A stretch of 64,000 nt of DNA from a virus: positions 1 to 64,000 of IMG/VR virus record IMGVR_UViG_3300035698_022838; one strand, given 5' to 3'. Positions 7,129 to 37,203 of this stretch are shown one piece after another. Numbering within the stretch: the stretch's first letter is position 1; every line of letters begins with the position of its first letter. The translations under genes and the position numbers were made by a program. Under the pieces are notes generated by a model. That model saw only the letters and a program-made list of their open reading frames with translations. It was not told the origin of the DNA and searched no databases.

Positions 7129-7497
7129 TTAATAATATTCAGTTCCGCTATCATATGTCTCAGTTTCAGACTCTTGATATTCAGTTCCGTTACTTTCATT
7201 ATACTTTTTGAAATTATATTCATCCTTATTCAATGCAAGATCATTATAGACATTTACATTTACAGTTCTGCCATCCTCCAATTCCAGGGTACTATTAAGT
7301 ATTGAATAATCAATAATTATTAACGTATCCTTACTTAAAACAATTTTCTCACCAACCAACTCCTTATAAGCTTCATTGTTGGATCTAAGATCTTTAATTT
7401 CATCAGCTGCAAATTTCTTTGCTATATAATAAACAATTACTATAGCAATAGCTACTTTAACAAACCACCATACTATTCCACTTATTGATACCCTCAT
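7129..7497 (-). CDS. Membrane-anchored small protein
   Basis: 122 residues with one N-terminal membrane helix (about residues 8-26, IVWWFVKVAIAIVIVYYIA) and a soluble acidic C-terminal part ending in a Ser/Thr/Glu/Tyr-rich tail (ESETETYDSGTEYY). The orientation suggests a cytoplasmic or periplasmic tail anchored in the inner membrane. Function unknown. Overlaps the preceding RNA ligase piece's stop by one base. Confidence 0.6.
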   Translation of the reverse strand: MRVSISGIVWWFVKVAIAIVIVYYIAKKFAADEIKDLRSNNEAYKELVGEKIVLSKDTLIIIDYSILNSTLELEDGRTVNVNVYNDLALNKDEYNFKKYNESNGTEYQESETETYDSGTEYY

Positions 7498-8264
7498 TAT
7501 TCCTTATTTTCAATTAAAAATTTATTACTAATTGCTTTGAATGATATTACTGAATCAACACTTCTAACGACAACACCTTCTCTTTCTATTTGGGTATTTA
7601 TTCTGGATTTGCTTTCAGCATATGCTAATATACCTTCTATGGTCTTAGGAAGAGTAAAGTATTCATCAATTACAGGAACCATTATTAAATCCATAGAATT
7701 AGTAATACCTATAAGTTCATCAAGATTTCCATATTCATAGGTAACAATGTTGAAGTAACTAAAAACCCTTAATGTTTGTCCTTTAATTTTATATTTATTA
7801 CTTTGAATTCCTTCACCTATAATTTCTCCCTGTACCATAAAATTTCCGCCGATTGCACGCATTTTAGCTTCGATATCTAATTCCCTTGCAACTTTCCAAT
7901 ATGTGTTTTCTTGTACCAGTCTTTCAATACCATCATCACATATTATAGTAGCACCTTTTTCAATTGGAGTAGGTCTTTGCATATCCCAATTTCTAGAACA
8001 TACACCAAACTCCCCATCATATAGGTAATAAGTTGCGGAGGTACCATCGAGTTTTTCAGTGGCATAGAAAAGAATCCCATATTCAACCCATTTCATATAA
8101 TCTTTTACAAGATTCTGAACGCGTTCTTCATCGGTCTTCCTAATGAACGAAGGAAAGTTACCCTTTACTTTACCACCCAATTGTGCTGGAATAGGTGGTT
8201 CGTATTTCTGAATTCCTAAAAGTTCAGTAACATCAGTTCCTTCATTTAATATAATTTCTTTCAT
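7497..8264 (-). CDS. RNA ligase, catalytic C-terminal piece of a split gene
   Basis: 255 residues carrying the nucleotidyltransferase motifs of the RNA ligase superfamily: motif I ATEKLDGTS (Lys as AMP acceptor, ~residue 72), a downstream FGVCSRNWD (motif Ia/III region), GNFMVQGEIIGEGIQ (motif IIIa/IV region), EREGVVVRS (motif IV) and ISFKAISNKFL (motif V). The first residues EGTDVTELLGIQKYEPP correspond to the usual junction between the N-terminal domain and the ligase domain. That N-terminal domain is encoded separately at 9188-9559, with a homing endonuclease gene between. The protein would seal RNA ends, for example after host tRNA cleavage; whether the pieces assemble is untested. Confidence 0.8.
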   Translation of the reverse strand: MKEIILNEGTDVTELLGIQKYEPPIPAQLGGKVKGNFPSFIRKTDEERVQNLVKDYMKWVEYGILFYATEKLDGTSATYYLYDGEFGVCSRNWDMQRPTPIEKGATIICDDGIERLVQENTYWKVARELDIEAKMRAIGGNFMVQGEIIGEGIQSNKYKIKGQTLRVFSYFNIVTYEYGNLDELIGITNSMDLIMVPVIDEYFTLPKTIEGILAYAESKSRINTQIEREGVVVRSVDSVISFKAISNKFLIENKE

Positions 8265-9169
8265 GTTTTTAATATATTAGCAATTAAAGTTTTAAATTCC
8301 AATTTTCGTTTTTCAATCTGAAGGTTTTTAATACCAAAAGACCTGATAACTTTTCTAATTCTCGATTCAGAAATATTTATCTTTTTAGAAATCTCTTTGA
8401 GTGTATGTAAATCTAATAATAATTCAAAAATAGATCTGATTTCGATATCAGTTAGATCTGGCTTTGAATTTGGATTTTGTTTACCCTTCCATAATTCAGA
8501 TTTTTTAGCCTTTAATTCATCTGATTTTTCTTTACCATATATTTCATCATACCCCTTTCCTTTACGAACATTAGACATTTTTTTCCGACTTTCCTCGGTG
8601 TGGGTTTTACCTAACATCGGATGATTTCCCCTTTCCCAGTGGTTTATTGGGGGTTTTATTCCAAGTGCTTTTATCGAATTACTGATTTTACTTTTAGCAT
8701 TTTGAGCTTTTTCCTTTCCCCATCGTTCTTCTAATGATTTCCCTTTACAATAAATAGATAATGATTTTGAAACTTTCTTATATGCTTCATTCTTTATTCT
8801 TTGTGCTTCTTCCTCTCCTTTATTTTCTTTAATCCATTCATATGGAGATTTACTATAATATTTTCCAGTATTTCCCCCGTCTCCGCCTATAGTCATATTA
8901 TATCCATTCTCACTAAATGAATTATATGCCTTTATATAATGAATTTCCAATACATCACCTTTCTCATTCGAGCATACTTCCAATTCGGTGACAATAAAAA
9001 AATCATACCCGTACTTATTCATTGCATCATATAATTTTCTATTAATCTTATTTCTAGCATTTCTTATATGCACTTGAAAGCGAGTTTTTATTGAATTTGA
9101 GGTTTTACCTATGTAACATTTACCATTTATAGTATTTGTTATTTTATATATGGTTATATCTGGCTTCAT
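8261..9169 (-). CDS. GIY-YIG homing endonuclease interrupting the RNA ligase gene
   Basis: 302 residues. N-terminal GIY-YIG nuclease domain (ITIYKITNTINGKCYIGKT, then a catalytic Arg in KTRFQVH and Glu in DVLEIHYIKAYN), a NUMOD3-type DNA-binding motif (NHPMLGKTHTEESRKKMS), and a C-terminal helix-turn-helix (LKEISKKINISESRIRKVI). This is the architecture of free-standing phage homing endonucleases of the Seg/Mob kind. Its stop overlaps the start of the catalytic ligase piece by four bases and its ATG is 19 bases after the stop of the N-terminal piece, leaving no room for an intron. A GATATATA box lies 19 bases upstream. Confidence 0.9.
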   Translation of the reverse strand: MKPDITIYKITNTINGKCYIGKTSNSIKTRFQVHIRNARNKINRKLYDAMNKYGYDFFIVTELEVCSNEKGDVLEIHYIKAYNSFSENGYNMTIGGDGGNTGKYYSKSPYEWIKENKGEEEAQRIKNEAYKKVSKSLSIYCKGKSLEERWGKEKAQNAKSKISNSIKALGIKPPINHWERGNHPMLGKTHTEESRKKMSNVRKGKGYDEIYGKEKSDELKAKKSELWKGKQNPNSKPDLTDIEIRSIFELLLDLHTLKEISKKINISESRIRKVIRSFGIKNLQIEKRKLEFKTLIANILKT

Positions 9170-9187
9170 AAATATATAGTTTTTATT

Positions 9188-9559
9188 CTATATATCATTT
9201 TCAATAACTAGTTTCGTTGCATCTCCATCTTTAACGATTTTTCCTTTTGTAATTACAGCTAAAGTATCTAAATTTAATATTAAACCTTGACTAATAGTAT
9301 TACGTAATTTAATTGTGCGTATTCTAAATCCTTCTTTGTCACCCATTTTTTTAAATGAGCTTTTTCTTAAGAATTCAAATTCTGGTTCAACAGGTAGAAA
9401 AGAATCAACTTCACAATAAACAACCAAATCACCAATTTCATGACCAACATCCTTTCCGATTACTACTTTCCAACCATCTATGGTTGCGACCTCAATCATA
9501 TCAGCACCTTCGATAGGTTGGATATCTGAGATTTTTCTAATTGTTGCTAATTTTCTCAT
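9188..9559 (-). CDS. RNA ligase, N-terminal domain piece of a split gene
   Basis: 123 residues from the ATG at 9559 (MRKLATIRKISDIQPIEGAD). The sequence (IEVATIDGWKVVIGK, GDLVVYCEVDSFLP, KKMGDKEGFRIRTIKLR, ISQGLILNL) is the N-terminal OB-like domain found ahead of the catalytic domain in Deinococcus-type (DRB0094/Rnl5-like) RNA ligases. It stops at KDGDATKLVIENDI, which aligns loosely with the NEGTDVTELLGIQ at the start of the catalytic piece, so the junction seems to have been duplicated and diverged when the endonuclease gene was inserted. The start overlaps the end of the HD-domain gene by four bases. Confidence 0.8.
   Translation of the reverse strand: MRKLATIRKISDIQPIEGADMIEVATIDGWKVVIGKDVGHEIGDLVVYCEVDSFLPVEPEFEFLRKSSFKKMGDKEGFRIRTIKLRNTISQGLILNLDTLAVITKGKIVKDGDATKLVIENDI
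9189..9196 (-). promoter_or_regulatory. GATATATA box upstream of the homing endonuclease
   Basis: Exact GATATATA on the minus strand, 19 bases before the endonuclease ATG and embedded in the last codons of the ligase N-terminal piece, so the endonuclease may have its own late transcript. Confidence 0.45.
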
Positions 9560-21711: not shown

Positions 21712-21877
21712 TTATTTTCTTATGTAAATCTTCTAAATATTGCATTGAAATATCTGATCCTATAAGAGCATCGGGCTTATATAAATAAACCCGAAGAAAT
21801 TCCTTATCGTCATTGTATGATTCTCTTATTAATTTTAGTTTTTCAAGTTCAGGAATATATTTCTTATTAAAGCTCAT
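21698..21877 (-). CDS. Small hypothetical protein behind the polymerase piece
   Basis: 59 residues read directly (MSFNKKYIPELEKLKLIRES ...). Its ATG overlaps the polymerase stop (TAATG) and its end runs 14 bases into the next gene. Charged, helical, no motif recognised. The coupling suggests it is translated with the polymerase C-terminal piece. Confidence 0.6.
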   Translation of the reverse strand: MSFNKKYIPELEKLKLIRESYNDDKEFLRVYLYKPDALIGSDISMQYLEDLHKKINGKH

Positions 21878-23019
21878 TAAAATAATATGTTTAACATAAA
21901 TAGGTTTGGACTAATTGGATTATGACCCATTACGACGATAAAGCGATTTATAGGATCCAATATGGTCTTAGTAAATTGCATATCAAAGTCAATTGGTGGA
22001 GCAAATTCATAAGGGAATTTACCTTGTGGATATGCAAAAACATTATTATCTTTGATGCTTTTTGTTTTAACAAAATAATATCTAACTTTGTTTCCACTAC
22101 CTATAAGTGGATATTTATCTTTATATTGTGAACCATTCAATAAAAAATTATGATATCCAGCAGCTCGTACATGTATAGGACAACCTTTACCAACTTCCAA
22201 TGCTGTAGTGTCGTTAACAATACCTTTCTCATAATTATTAAGACCTATTGCTGCAGCTATATTTTCAGGTTCTTGTGCTTTGAAATCGCGTTTGATGATC
22301 TTTAACTCCTGTACAAATTCACGAAGCTGAAATCCTCTACCCTTTTCGAAAATAAATTTAGTAAGATATAATAATTTTTCTCTTACGAAAGATGGTGTTC
22401 CACCTTTGATCATCTCAACCCCAGTGGTCTTAATTGCTGTTAATGGATCACTATGTACACCATCAGAATAAACTATGTTGGTTACATATTTCTTTTTACC
22501 TAAAAAGATTCCATTTATAGAAAGTGTTTCTAGTTCAAAATCTTGATAATTATCGGTTCCCCATTTTTCAGCATAAATATCAAAACATTTCTTTAGATAT
22601 CCAACTAATCTATGTTCATTTATCTGTAGAATTAATTCCTTAGGATCTCCTTCCCAATCACACGAAGCGACAACATCTTGAAAAGTAATATAATTAGAAT
22701 CAGTATCACCGTAAACAACCATTGGTTTATGGATTATACCAACTTTAGTTAACCCAAGTATATCATGTAATTCTTTATCTTTATGCCAGAATTCATGGAA
22801 GTATTTATGTAAAAGCTTCTCTGAATGCTTTATTAAATCCTGACCTTGTAGAGTAACCGCTTCAGCAACTGCAGGATTGAAACAAACAAACCAATTATTC
22901 CCTACCGCTCCATAGATAGAATTCATGGTTAGTTTAATTGCTTGCTCCTCATTCTTTAGTTCATTCTTTATAGCAGTTAAATCTTCTATTTTCTTTTTTA
23001 GTTCTTCCTTTTCTGTCAT
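21877..23019 (-). CDS. 43B: DNA polymerase (T4 gp43-like), C-terminal piece of a split gene
   Basis: 380 residues. It starts with a charged helix (TEKEELKKKIEDLTAIKNEL) then motif B IKLTMNSIYGAVGNNWF, motif C VYGDTDSNYITF, and the thumb region ending in a C-terminal peptide (SPNLFMLNILF) that in T4-type polymerases binds the sliding clamp. The exonuclease domain and motif A are missing; they are on a separate gene at 35803-37203. Together the pieces give about 846 residues, near T4 gp43. The gap lies in the fingers helices. Located one base after the clamp gene. Confidence 0.88.
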   Translation of the reverse strand: MTEKEELKKKIEDLTAIKNELKNEEQAIKLTMNSIYGAVGNNWFVCFNPAVAEAVTLQGQDLIKHSEKLLHKYFHEFWHKDKELHDILGLTKVGIIHKPMVVYGDTDSNYITFQDVVASCDWEGDPKELILQINEHRLVGYLKKCFDIYAEKWGTDNYQDFELETLSINGIFLGKKKYVTNIVYSDGVHSDPLTAIKTTGVEMIKGGTPSFVREKLLYLTKFIFEKGRGFQLREFVQELKIIKRDFKAQEPENIAAAIGLNNYEKGIVNDTTALEVGKGCPIHVRAAGYHNFLLNGSQYKDKYPLIGSGNKVRYYFVKTKSIKDNNVFAYPQGKFPYEFAPPIDFDMQFTKTILDPINRFIVVMGHNPISPNLFMLNILF

Positions 23020-35802: not shown

Positions 35803-37203
35803 TTACATTTTTTCATATTCTCTTTCCATTAGATCTATATCGATTTGCATTTTAAGCATTCGTTTTTTTGTAGCTTTTCTTTGTGCATATAAATCTTTAA
35901 CTATAATCTTTAGGATTGGTTTTTCATTGTCACCGCCAAATACTGCACCAGAACAAGTTTTAATCCAGCCATCCTTAATACTTTCAAAGTTTTTCCCTTT
36001 ATATACTTCTGGTGATATTCCCCATTGAACAATTACATTTGGGTATAGCGAAGCAAAATCATAACAAGCAACCCACTCATGCAGACCTCTTATCGGTTCT
36101 TTAACATATCCACCAGTAAATTTCACATGTGTTTCATCCTTCCGTTCGTTTACAAAAACCTGTTTACGTTCTAAGAATTTTTTAAGCATCATTACTTCTG
36201 TAGACCAAACAGGTGAAAGAGCTCTACTAATTTCCACTGTATTTAGGTTTGCTATTTTGAAGTAAGTTAGCATTGTTTTTAGCTTAACATCTATATAATG
36301 CACCAATGCACAGTCAATAACATTATAAAGAATAAACTTAGGAAAATCTGACTGATAAAGATCTCTTAATGAACCATCATATGATATTTTCTTTAACCCC
36401 GTAGCTTTTTCAGCAACATAATCTAATCTATTACTTTCCTTAATCTTAATTACTCTGTCCCATTTTTTATAAATCTCCAGATAATCGACCATTGTTAAGT
36501 GCATAGGTAAACTATTTTTACCAATTAGATATTTACCAGGGGATACTATTTTAGGATCTATACCTAATTTTCTAGCTCTATTGATAAGATATGGCCAGTC
36601 ATATCCAAACCAATTCCAGCCTGTAATCAAAGCCATTTTAGGAGCAAAATCTTTGAAAAATGTATATAGCATATCATATTCACTTTCAAATTGCTTATAT
36701 TTAAACGTCCACTCATCACCCATAGGTTCCAAGTATTTATTTATTCTCTTGTAGATATCACCTTGTTCTTCTGCTGTTAACGGATCTAGCCCAAACACTA
36801 TAGATTTACATTTATCAGTTGCTACTGCTATCGAGAGTACCTTATTCGGGGTATTTACAGTATCTAATGCATCCTTCATCTCATTGGTCATCTCAACCTC
36901 AATATCAATAAAGTATTTTTTAGGTGTTTGGTATTCCCATAATGGTTTAGTTAGTTCAGGATCTGCCTCGTTTAACATCTGGACCATTCGATATTTATCA
37001 TATCTTTGAGTTGGGACTTTACGAATCGGAAAACCATTCCAAGTTTTCCATTCTGGATCCCTTCTTCGGTCTGATTGTGAACATACTTCCCATATAAATC
37101 TTTCTTCTTCCGGTATTGGGATCTGTATGAATATACGATCTCCTTCTTCAGAAAATGAAGAAACTCTTAAATAAGTTCCTTTGTTTTCAATGTCTGTTAT
37201 CAT
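35803..37203 (-). CDS. 43A: DNA polymerase (T4 gp43-like), N-terminal piece of a split gene
   Basis: 466 residues. It contains the 3'-5' exonuclease motifs KYFIDIEVEMTN (Exo I), LITGWNWFGYDWPYLIN (Exo II), FILYNVIDCALVHYIDV (Exo III), and polymerase motif A VACYDFASLYPNVIV near the end. It stops in a Lys/Met-rich helix (KATKKRMLKMQIDIDLMERE) that should be the first fingers helix. The rest of the polymerase is a separate gene 12.8 kb downstream (21877-23019). Confidence 0.9.
   Translation of the reverse strand: MITDIENKGTYLRVSSFSEEGDRIFIQIPIPEEERFIWEVCSQSDRRRDPEWKTWNGFPIRKVPTQRYDKYRMVQMLNEADPELTKPLWEYQTPKKYFIDIEVEMTNEMKDALDTVNTPNKVLSIAVATDKCKSIVFGLDPLTAEEQGDIYKRINKYLEPMGDEWTFKYKQFESEYDMLYTFFKDFAPKMALITGWNWFGYDWPYLINRARKLGIDPKIVSPGKYLIGKNSLPMHLTMVDYLEIYKKWDRVIKIKESNRLDYVAEKATGLKKISYDGSLRDLYQSDFPKFILYNVIDCALVHYIDVKLKTMLTYFKIANLNTVEISRALSPVWSTEVMMLKKFLERKQVFVNERKDETHVKFTGGYVKEPIRGLHEWVACYDFASLYPNVIVQWGISPEVYKGKNFESIKDGWIKTCSGAVFGGDNEKPILKIIVKDLYAQRKATKKRMLKMQIDIDLMEREYEKM

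Follow-up and report, generated by a model that had tools for sequence, protein, structure and literature searches.

An RNA ligase gene split between its OB and catalytic domains by a free-standing GIY-YIG endonuclease gene in a virus and in many ligase lineages

The splitting of phage genes by free-standing endonucleases has been reported for few genes, for example nrdA of Aeh1 and gene 60 of T4 (PMC2988022, PMC10448857), and the split NrdA of Aeh1 is reported to be functional (review PMC2988022). Mobile ORFs of fungal mitochondria, known from atp6 of Allomyces and from atp6, atp9, cox2 and nad3 of Glomus, insert a foreign C-terminus into the host gene; the native C-terminus is replaced and stays behind, and it is absent from the mRNA of two of four genes (PMC3630166). 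The GIY-YIG endonuclease I-TevI of the T4 td intron represses itself at an operator that precedes its gene and resembles its homing site at 15 of 20 positions (PMC2988022). On the side of the enzyme, the Rnl5-type RNA ligase of Naegleria gruberi (5cot, 6vt series) carries an OB domain followed by a catalytic domain in a single polypeptide. In the fractured genes reportedly described by Dassa in 2009, a work cited in PMC10448857, a free-standing endonuclease is said to lie between two gene pieces that bear split inteins.

We analysed a window of 64,000 nucleotides (positions 1 to 64,000 of the 162,880-base viral record IMGVR_UViG_3300035698_022838) in which an RNA ligase gene had been predicted to be divided into pieces. 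ORF positions and domain matches bore out three ORFs on the minus strand, which in transcription order encode an OB domain (9188-9559), a GIY-YIG protein (8261-9169) and a nucleotidyltransferase (7497-8264). The features of the locus are as follows.

9188-9559, minus strand: N-terminal ligase half, 123 aa, OB-fold domain with a short C-terminal tail (PF21189, E 1.5e-36)
9284-9304, minus strand: R-N-T-I-S-Q-G codons at the position of R-G-Q-[VILY]-S-Q-G in intact ligases; putative endonuclease target region, altered here
9191-9271, minus strand: C-terminal tail of the N half, containing KDGDATKLVIE; predicted helix and beta-hairpin (AlphaFold)
9170-9189, minus strand: leader before the endonuclease ATG, AGAATAAAAACTATATATTT; read in a frame that is not used, it gives R-I-K-T-I-Y-(L), a degenerate version of the OB segment R-(L/I)-K-T-I-(K/R)-L
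8261-9169, minus strand: GIY-YIG homing endonuclease, 302 aa, with NUMOD3 and a C-terminal helix-turn-helix-like region (PF01541, 2e-9; NUMOD3 PF07460, 1.4e-6)
7497-8264, minus strand: C-terminal ligase half, 255 aa, nucleotidyltransferase (catalytic) domain (PF09414 RNA_ligase, 2e-20)

The likeness to mobE and nrdA of Aeh1 that the original prediction had drawn was apt as far as the architecture is concerned, since in both cases a free-standing endonuclease gene divides a phage enzyme gene into separate polypeptides. It did not extend to the class of endonuclease: mobE encodes an HNH enzyme and its host gene is nrdA, whereas the ligase was invaded by a GIY-YIG gene, recurrently in many lineages, and shows an altered motif and a copied target segment. 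As in the fungal mobile ORFs (PMC3630166), an endonuclease ORF would bring along, where it inserts, a divergent substitute for part of the host coding sequence; unlike there, the replacement would be confined to the end of the OB domain, and what remains of the gene forms a separate ORF. The domain order of the Naegleria ligase recurs in the window halves, but on two polypeptides. In contrast to the fractured genes, no intein was found in the window ligase pieces, which would not be joined. The phenomena of phage gene splitting and of a carried replacement of host sequence were known already; no split RNA ligase of such kind was described in the open-access papers searched. We estimate a probability of roughly three in four that a free-standing homing endonuclease specialised on the ligase cuts within the segment coding for the OB domain and brings with it a divergent replacement of that segment, which would confer self-immunity and leave a two-piece ligase.

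The two ligase pieces proved to be consecutive parts of one enzyme. A single PHROG, phrog_968, was matched by both, residues 1-105 of the N half aligning to profile positions 7-115 and residues 8-254 of the C half to positions 124-393. Likewise, complementary parts of the Naegleria gruberi RNA ligase were matched at the sequence level by the N half (4-111) and the C half (110-338). The match of the C half reached E 1.1e-41 with the KLDG, QGEIIGE, REG and FKAISN segments aligned, and the N half also matched this ligase by fold (6vt1, E 6.4e-9). By its sequence, the window ligase is of the Naegleria-like Rnl5 type, with an N-terminal OB and a C-terminal nucleotidyltransferase domain on two ORFs, and the split position corresponds to the linker between these domains. 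Each piece has its own start and stop, as predicted: the N half, whose ATG start shares 4 nt with an upstream HD-domain gene, ends at its own stop only 18 nt before the endonuclease start, and the C half begins with its own ATG in a 4-nt overlap with the endonuclease stop.

In the endonuclease, the residues Y8, Y19, G21, R30, H34 and E75 were conserved in 14 of 14 aligned relatives, and the predicted fold matched the catalytic domain of I-TevI (1mk0) with a TM of 0.85 on the target. The window enzyme thus appears to be a free-standing GIY-YIG homing endonuclease of the I-TevI/Seg kind with putative cutting and homing activity; I-TevI itself differs in being intron-borne, whereas the ligase element comes without an intron. 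It was the one GIY-YIG match in the 162,880-base record. With four of the endonucleases as queries, a scan returned 80 loci, and a ligase match adjoined the endonuclease in all 18 of the best-scoring new ones (L209-L226), so that the window endonuclease is best read as a member of a ligase-specialised lineage. Among the matches listed from 50,697 isolate phage records there was no split ligase, and the best matches of the endonuclease were less than 33% identical. At L216-L218, L223-L225, L229, L231, L232, L237 and L255, a related GIY-YIG gene was located directly upstream of the ligase gene and not within it.

Comparison with uninterrupted homologues, as proposed in the original prediction, was possible since most ligase-found IMG/VR relatives are encoded by a single ORF: 191 loci were intact among those read by script, with an OB-to-catalytic linker that varies in length and sequence. 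Phages related to the window at topoisomerase II (67% identical) encode an intact ligase in an open frame of 359 aa (L293-L298), and no endonuclease relative was found in them at the threshold used. The three-ORF arrangement was found in 14 distinct alleles, namely the window and 13 alleles from IMG/VR (L209, L210, L114, L120, L142, L179, L202, L219, L220, L221, L226, L233 and L275). A later scan of genome contigs added three more (L303, L304 and L305), giving 17 in all; the ligases of L304 and L305 are quite different, with catalytic halves 27% and 23% identical to the query. As the relatives were taken from metagenome-derived contigs, any single locus may carry an assembly error; two of the alleles were seen in more than one independent contig (L210-L212 and L114-L116).

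The last part of the OB domain of intact ligases carries the motif R-G-Q-[VILY]-S-Q-G, which was present in 110 of 130 unique intact ligases and in none of the 14 split alleles (Fisher 1.4e-10, with relatedness ignored). Among nine tree-independent intact/split pairs, the motif count stood at 9 to 0 (median of 200 pairings, p 0.004). The same 14 alleles served both to notice and to test the motif, the borders and the leader copy, which leaves L303-L305 as the only out-of-sample cases; the motif was absent from these as well (0 of 17). In its place, the split alleles carry widely varying sequences such as RNTISQG, RGTTSQG, RGQVSSG, RKQISCG and KGVTSQG. The best pairs revealed an abrupt border at this position. 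For instance, split L179 and intact L182 share 94% of their bases across the 266 nt that end at R-G, and none of the nine bases right after it. In L114/L134 homology is lost at these same codons, and in L120/L146 and L120/L124 a few codons further on, between the second and third residues of V-S-S-G. Among pairs of equal upstream identity, the 21 nt that follow were 50-55% identical in split-intact comparisons (43% in the top bin, which holds two pairs) versus 64-80% in intact-intact comparisons. The window alone showed a border effect in the same direction that was not significant, 13% of intact pairs being as low. At the opposite border, similarity is regained from the D of D-[VL]-T-E onward; as intact linkers also vary up to that point, this border says little. 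Two intact, endonuclease-free ligases (L187 and L192) have the RGTTSQG motif, which is characteristic of some split alleles, and may represent resistant alleles or endonuclease loss; alteration of the motif hence does not require the endonuclease.

The absence of the intact motif from all split alleles, whatever their lineage, would also be expected if the altered motif were a structural adaptation of a covalently unlinked OB domain rather than the loss of a cutting target. We consider this unlikely, since homology breaks off abruptly and silent changes contribute to the break: codons for the same residue after the motif were shared in 31-35% of cases between split and intact alleles and in 40-51% between intact pairs (two highest upstream bins). 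Moreover, the replacement sequences differ widely among split alleles.

The original prediction had further assumed a repair-created duplication of the junction residues, KDGDATKLVIE in the N half and NEGTDVTELLG in the C half. This was not upheld: the N tail compared with the head of its own C half gave a z of 0.07, and 43% of shuffles were as good. The window tail instead resembles the N tails of the split alleles L210 (z 5.7) and L209 (z 4.0), and a profile of other split tails did not recognise it above intact linkers or shuffles. In the AlphaFold model of the N half, the tail has a pLDDT of 75-78, falling to about 49 in the last three residues.

A different duplication was found in most of the related split loci, in which an OB-coding segment is copied directly upstream of the endonuclease start. 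The copied segment, R-(L/I)-(R/K)-T-(I/V)-(K/R)-L-R-G, comes from immediately before the motif on its 5' side, and the copy is read in a frame that the N half does not use. Scored with an OB-segment profile built from intact ligases, the leader was the top-ranked look-alike in the whole locus for L120, L142, L179, L202, L219, L220, L275, L209, L233 and L303. It ranked second in L114 and nineteenth in L226, while the copies of L210 (rank 17) and L221 (rank 71) were weak. Among the out-of-sample alleles only L303 had a leader copy; none was found in L304 (rank 391) and none was seen in L305. These ranks are non-independent tests because split loci share ancestry. The leader of the window, RIKTIYL, ranked 12-13 of 17,949 positions (p about 0.02); in the AT-rich group, the signal appeared only with a second profile from R-L-K-T-I ligases, so that the p values carry an extra choice. 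Comparison of leaders with their own OB segments by shuffling, which is less sensitive than the intact-ligase profile, gave mostly weak values. The window leader is nearly unchanged in L210-L212 and shares a long identical run with L210, while the window and L210 proteins are only about half identical. In viral_contigs, an exact 29-nt pattern of it matched only three contigs, each of them belonging to the L210-L212 locus. A target-like site upstream of the endonuclease gene is therefore strong in 10 related loci and degenerate in the window, whose border and leader signals are weak taken alone and lean on the relatives. With the I-TevI operator as a precedent, the leader copy could be a putative site of repression. 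A T4 late promoter was also considered, as TATAAATA is present upstream of the endonuclease in L142, L179, L202 and L226, and was dropped because the octamer showed no enrichment in the records tested, with 57 occurrences against 77 of the reversed control in the window record and 16 against 13 in that of L226.

These observations can be combined into a candidate mechanism. A GIY-YIG gene would invade an Rnl5-type ligase gene between the OB and catalytic domains and thereby give rise to two separately translated proteins. The most likely place for the endonuclease to cut an intact ligase gene would be near the R-G-Q-V-S-Q-G codons of the OB-coding segment, between R-G and Q-V-S-Q-G. Repair from the carrier genome would then copy in a whole block: the divergent replacement of Q-V-S-Q-G-L-L with a new C-terminal tail and a stop, the duplicate of the segment that precedes the motif, the endonuclease gene itself, and a start codon newly supplied to the catalytic half. 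With this replacement in place, the OB domain would be rebuilt and the target lost at the same time, resulting in self-immunity. Whether the locus represents a natural, splicing-independent 'home-and-rescue' phage element, in which one conversion rebuilds a domain, blocks cutting and makes two subunits, repeatedly across distant ligases, appears to us about evenly balanced. If the rescue reading is true, it would be a natural counterpart of engineered home-and-rescue drives (PMC7968924). Since many lineages were invaded at one domain boundary of a single enzyme family, they form natural replicates in which the choice of target, immunity and the rescue of the host gene can be compared, and the loci provide a testable set of two-piece RNA ligases together with a direct prediction of the cutting site.

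How often the split arose was addressed by a tree of the catalytic half with 106 rows (92 intact, 14 split). Split genes were scattered over the tree, requiring 11 changes on the best tree, of which at least nine were forced by well-supported (starred) branches; the nearest intact ligase of the window was only 60% identical. The same site is occupied in some lineages and empty in others, with the target motif altered in carriers. Counts of changes do not separate gain from loss, but repeated invasion seems likelier than repeated re-fusion. One ligase (L063:4677-5690) is interrupted in its linker by nothing more than an in-frame stop, with no endonuclease present, which may be a real fission or a sequencing error. 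It indicates that the ligase may tolerate fission, and fission might thus have come first, with the endonuclease moving later into the gap of an already two-gene ligase. This order of events is rather improbable, because the insert-free ligases were single ORFs among the loci read (191 intact), apart from L063 and the ambiguous L143, and the split alleles are dispersed over many intact lineages.

In the split pair L219/L220, dN/dS amounted to 0.10 for the N half, 0.21 for the endonuclease and 0.18 for the C half; both halves of this pair are under purifying selection, which argues that they were kept under selection while split. The alternative, a decaying pseudogene kept only as an endonuclease site, could explain the frameshift in the OB part of L142. 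It is hardly probable in view of these ratios and of the window halves, in which the OB domain and the aligned segments of the catalytic domain are preserved. Judging from the domain architecture and from the precedent of Aeh1 NrdA, the halves would probably work together as a ligase of two subunits. An intact ligase in the same genome, which would have spoken against the original prediction, was looked for in the 162,880-base record: it contained one copy each of the N and C halves and no second ligase.

The division by a free-standing gene and not by an intron, as originally predicted, was likewise supported. I-TevI-kind GIY-YIG endonucleases are commonly intron-borne, and a ligase of the same family, L206, seems to carry an intein with a separate endonuclease; yet joining of the window halves through a degenerate group I/II intron or a split intein is extremely unlikely, as the locus had no Rfam match at the gathering threshold and no plausible RNA family up to E 10, no intron body fits outside the ORFs between the 18-nt gap and the 4-nt overlap, and the intein-free pieces have a stop of their own in the N half and a start of their own in the C half. 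In L206 (963-3531), two apparent intein parts flank an endonuclease-like ORF (1830-2843) in a fractured-gene arrangement.

Two further observations concern the genome as a whole. A second divided enzyme is present in the window, where a phage DNA polymerase is encoded by two ORFs about 13 kb apart (35803-37203 and 21877-23019, both minus strand) that match positions 111-488 and 491-840 of the phrog_262 profile. Outside the window, the same record (G000) encodes a Gp23-like major capsid protein at 113948-115333 on the minus strand (PF07068, 4.6e-40), which points to a phage of the T4 superfamily.
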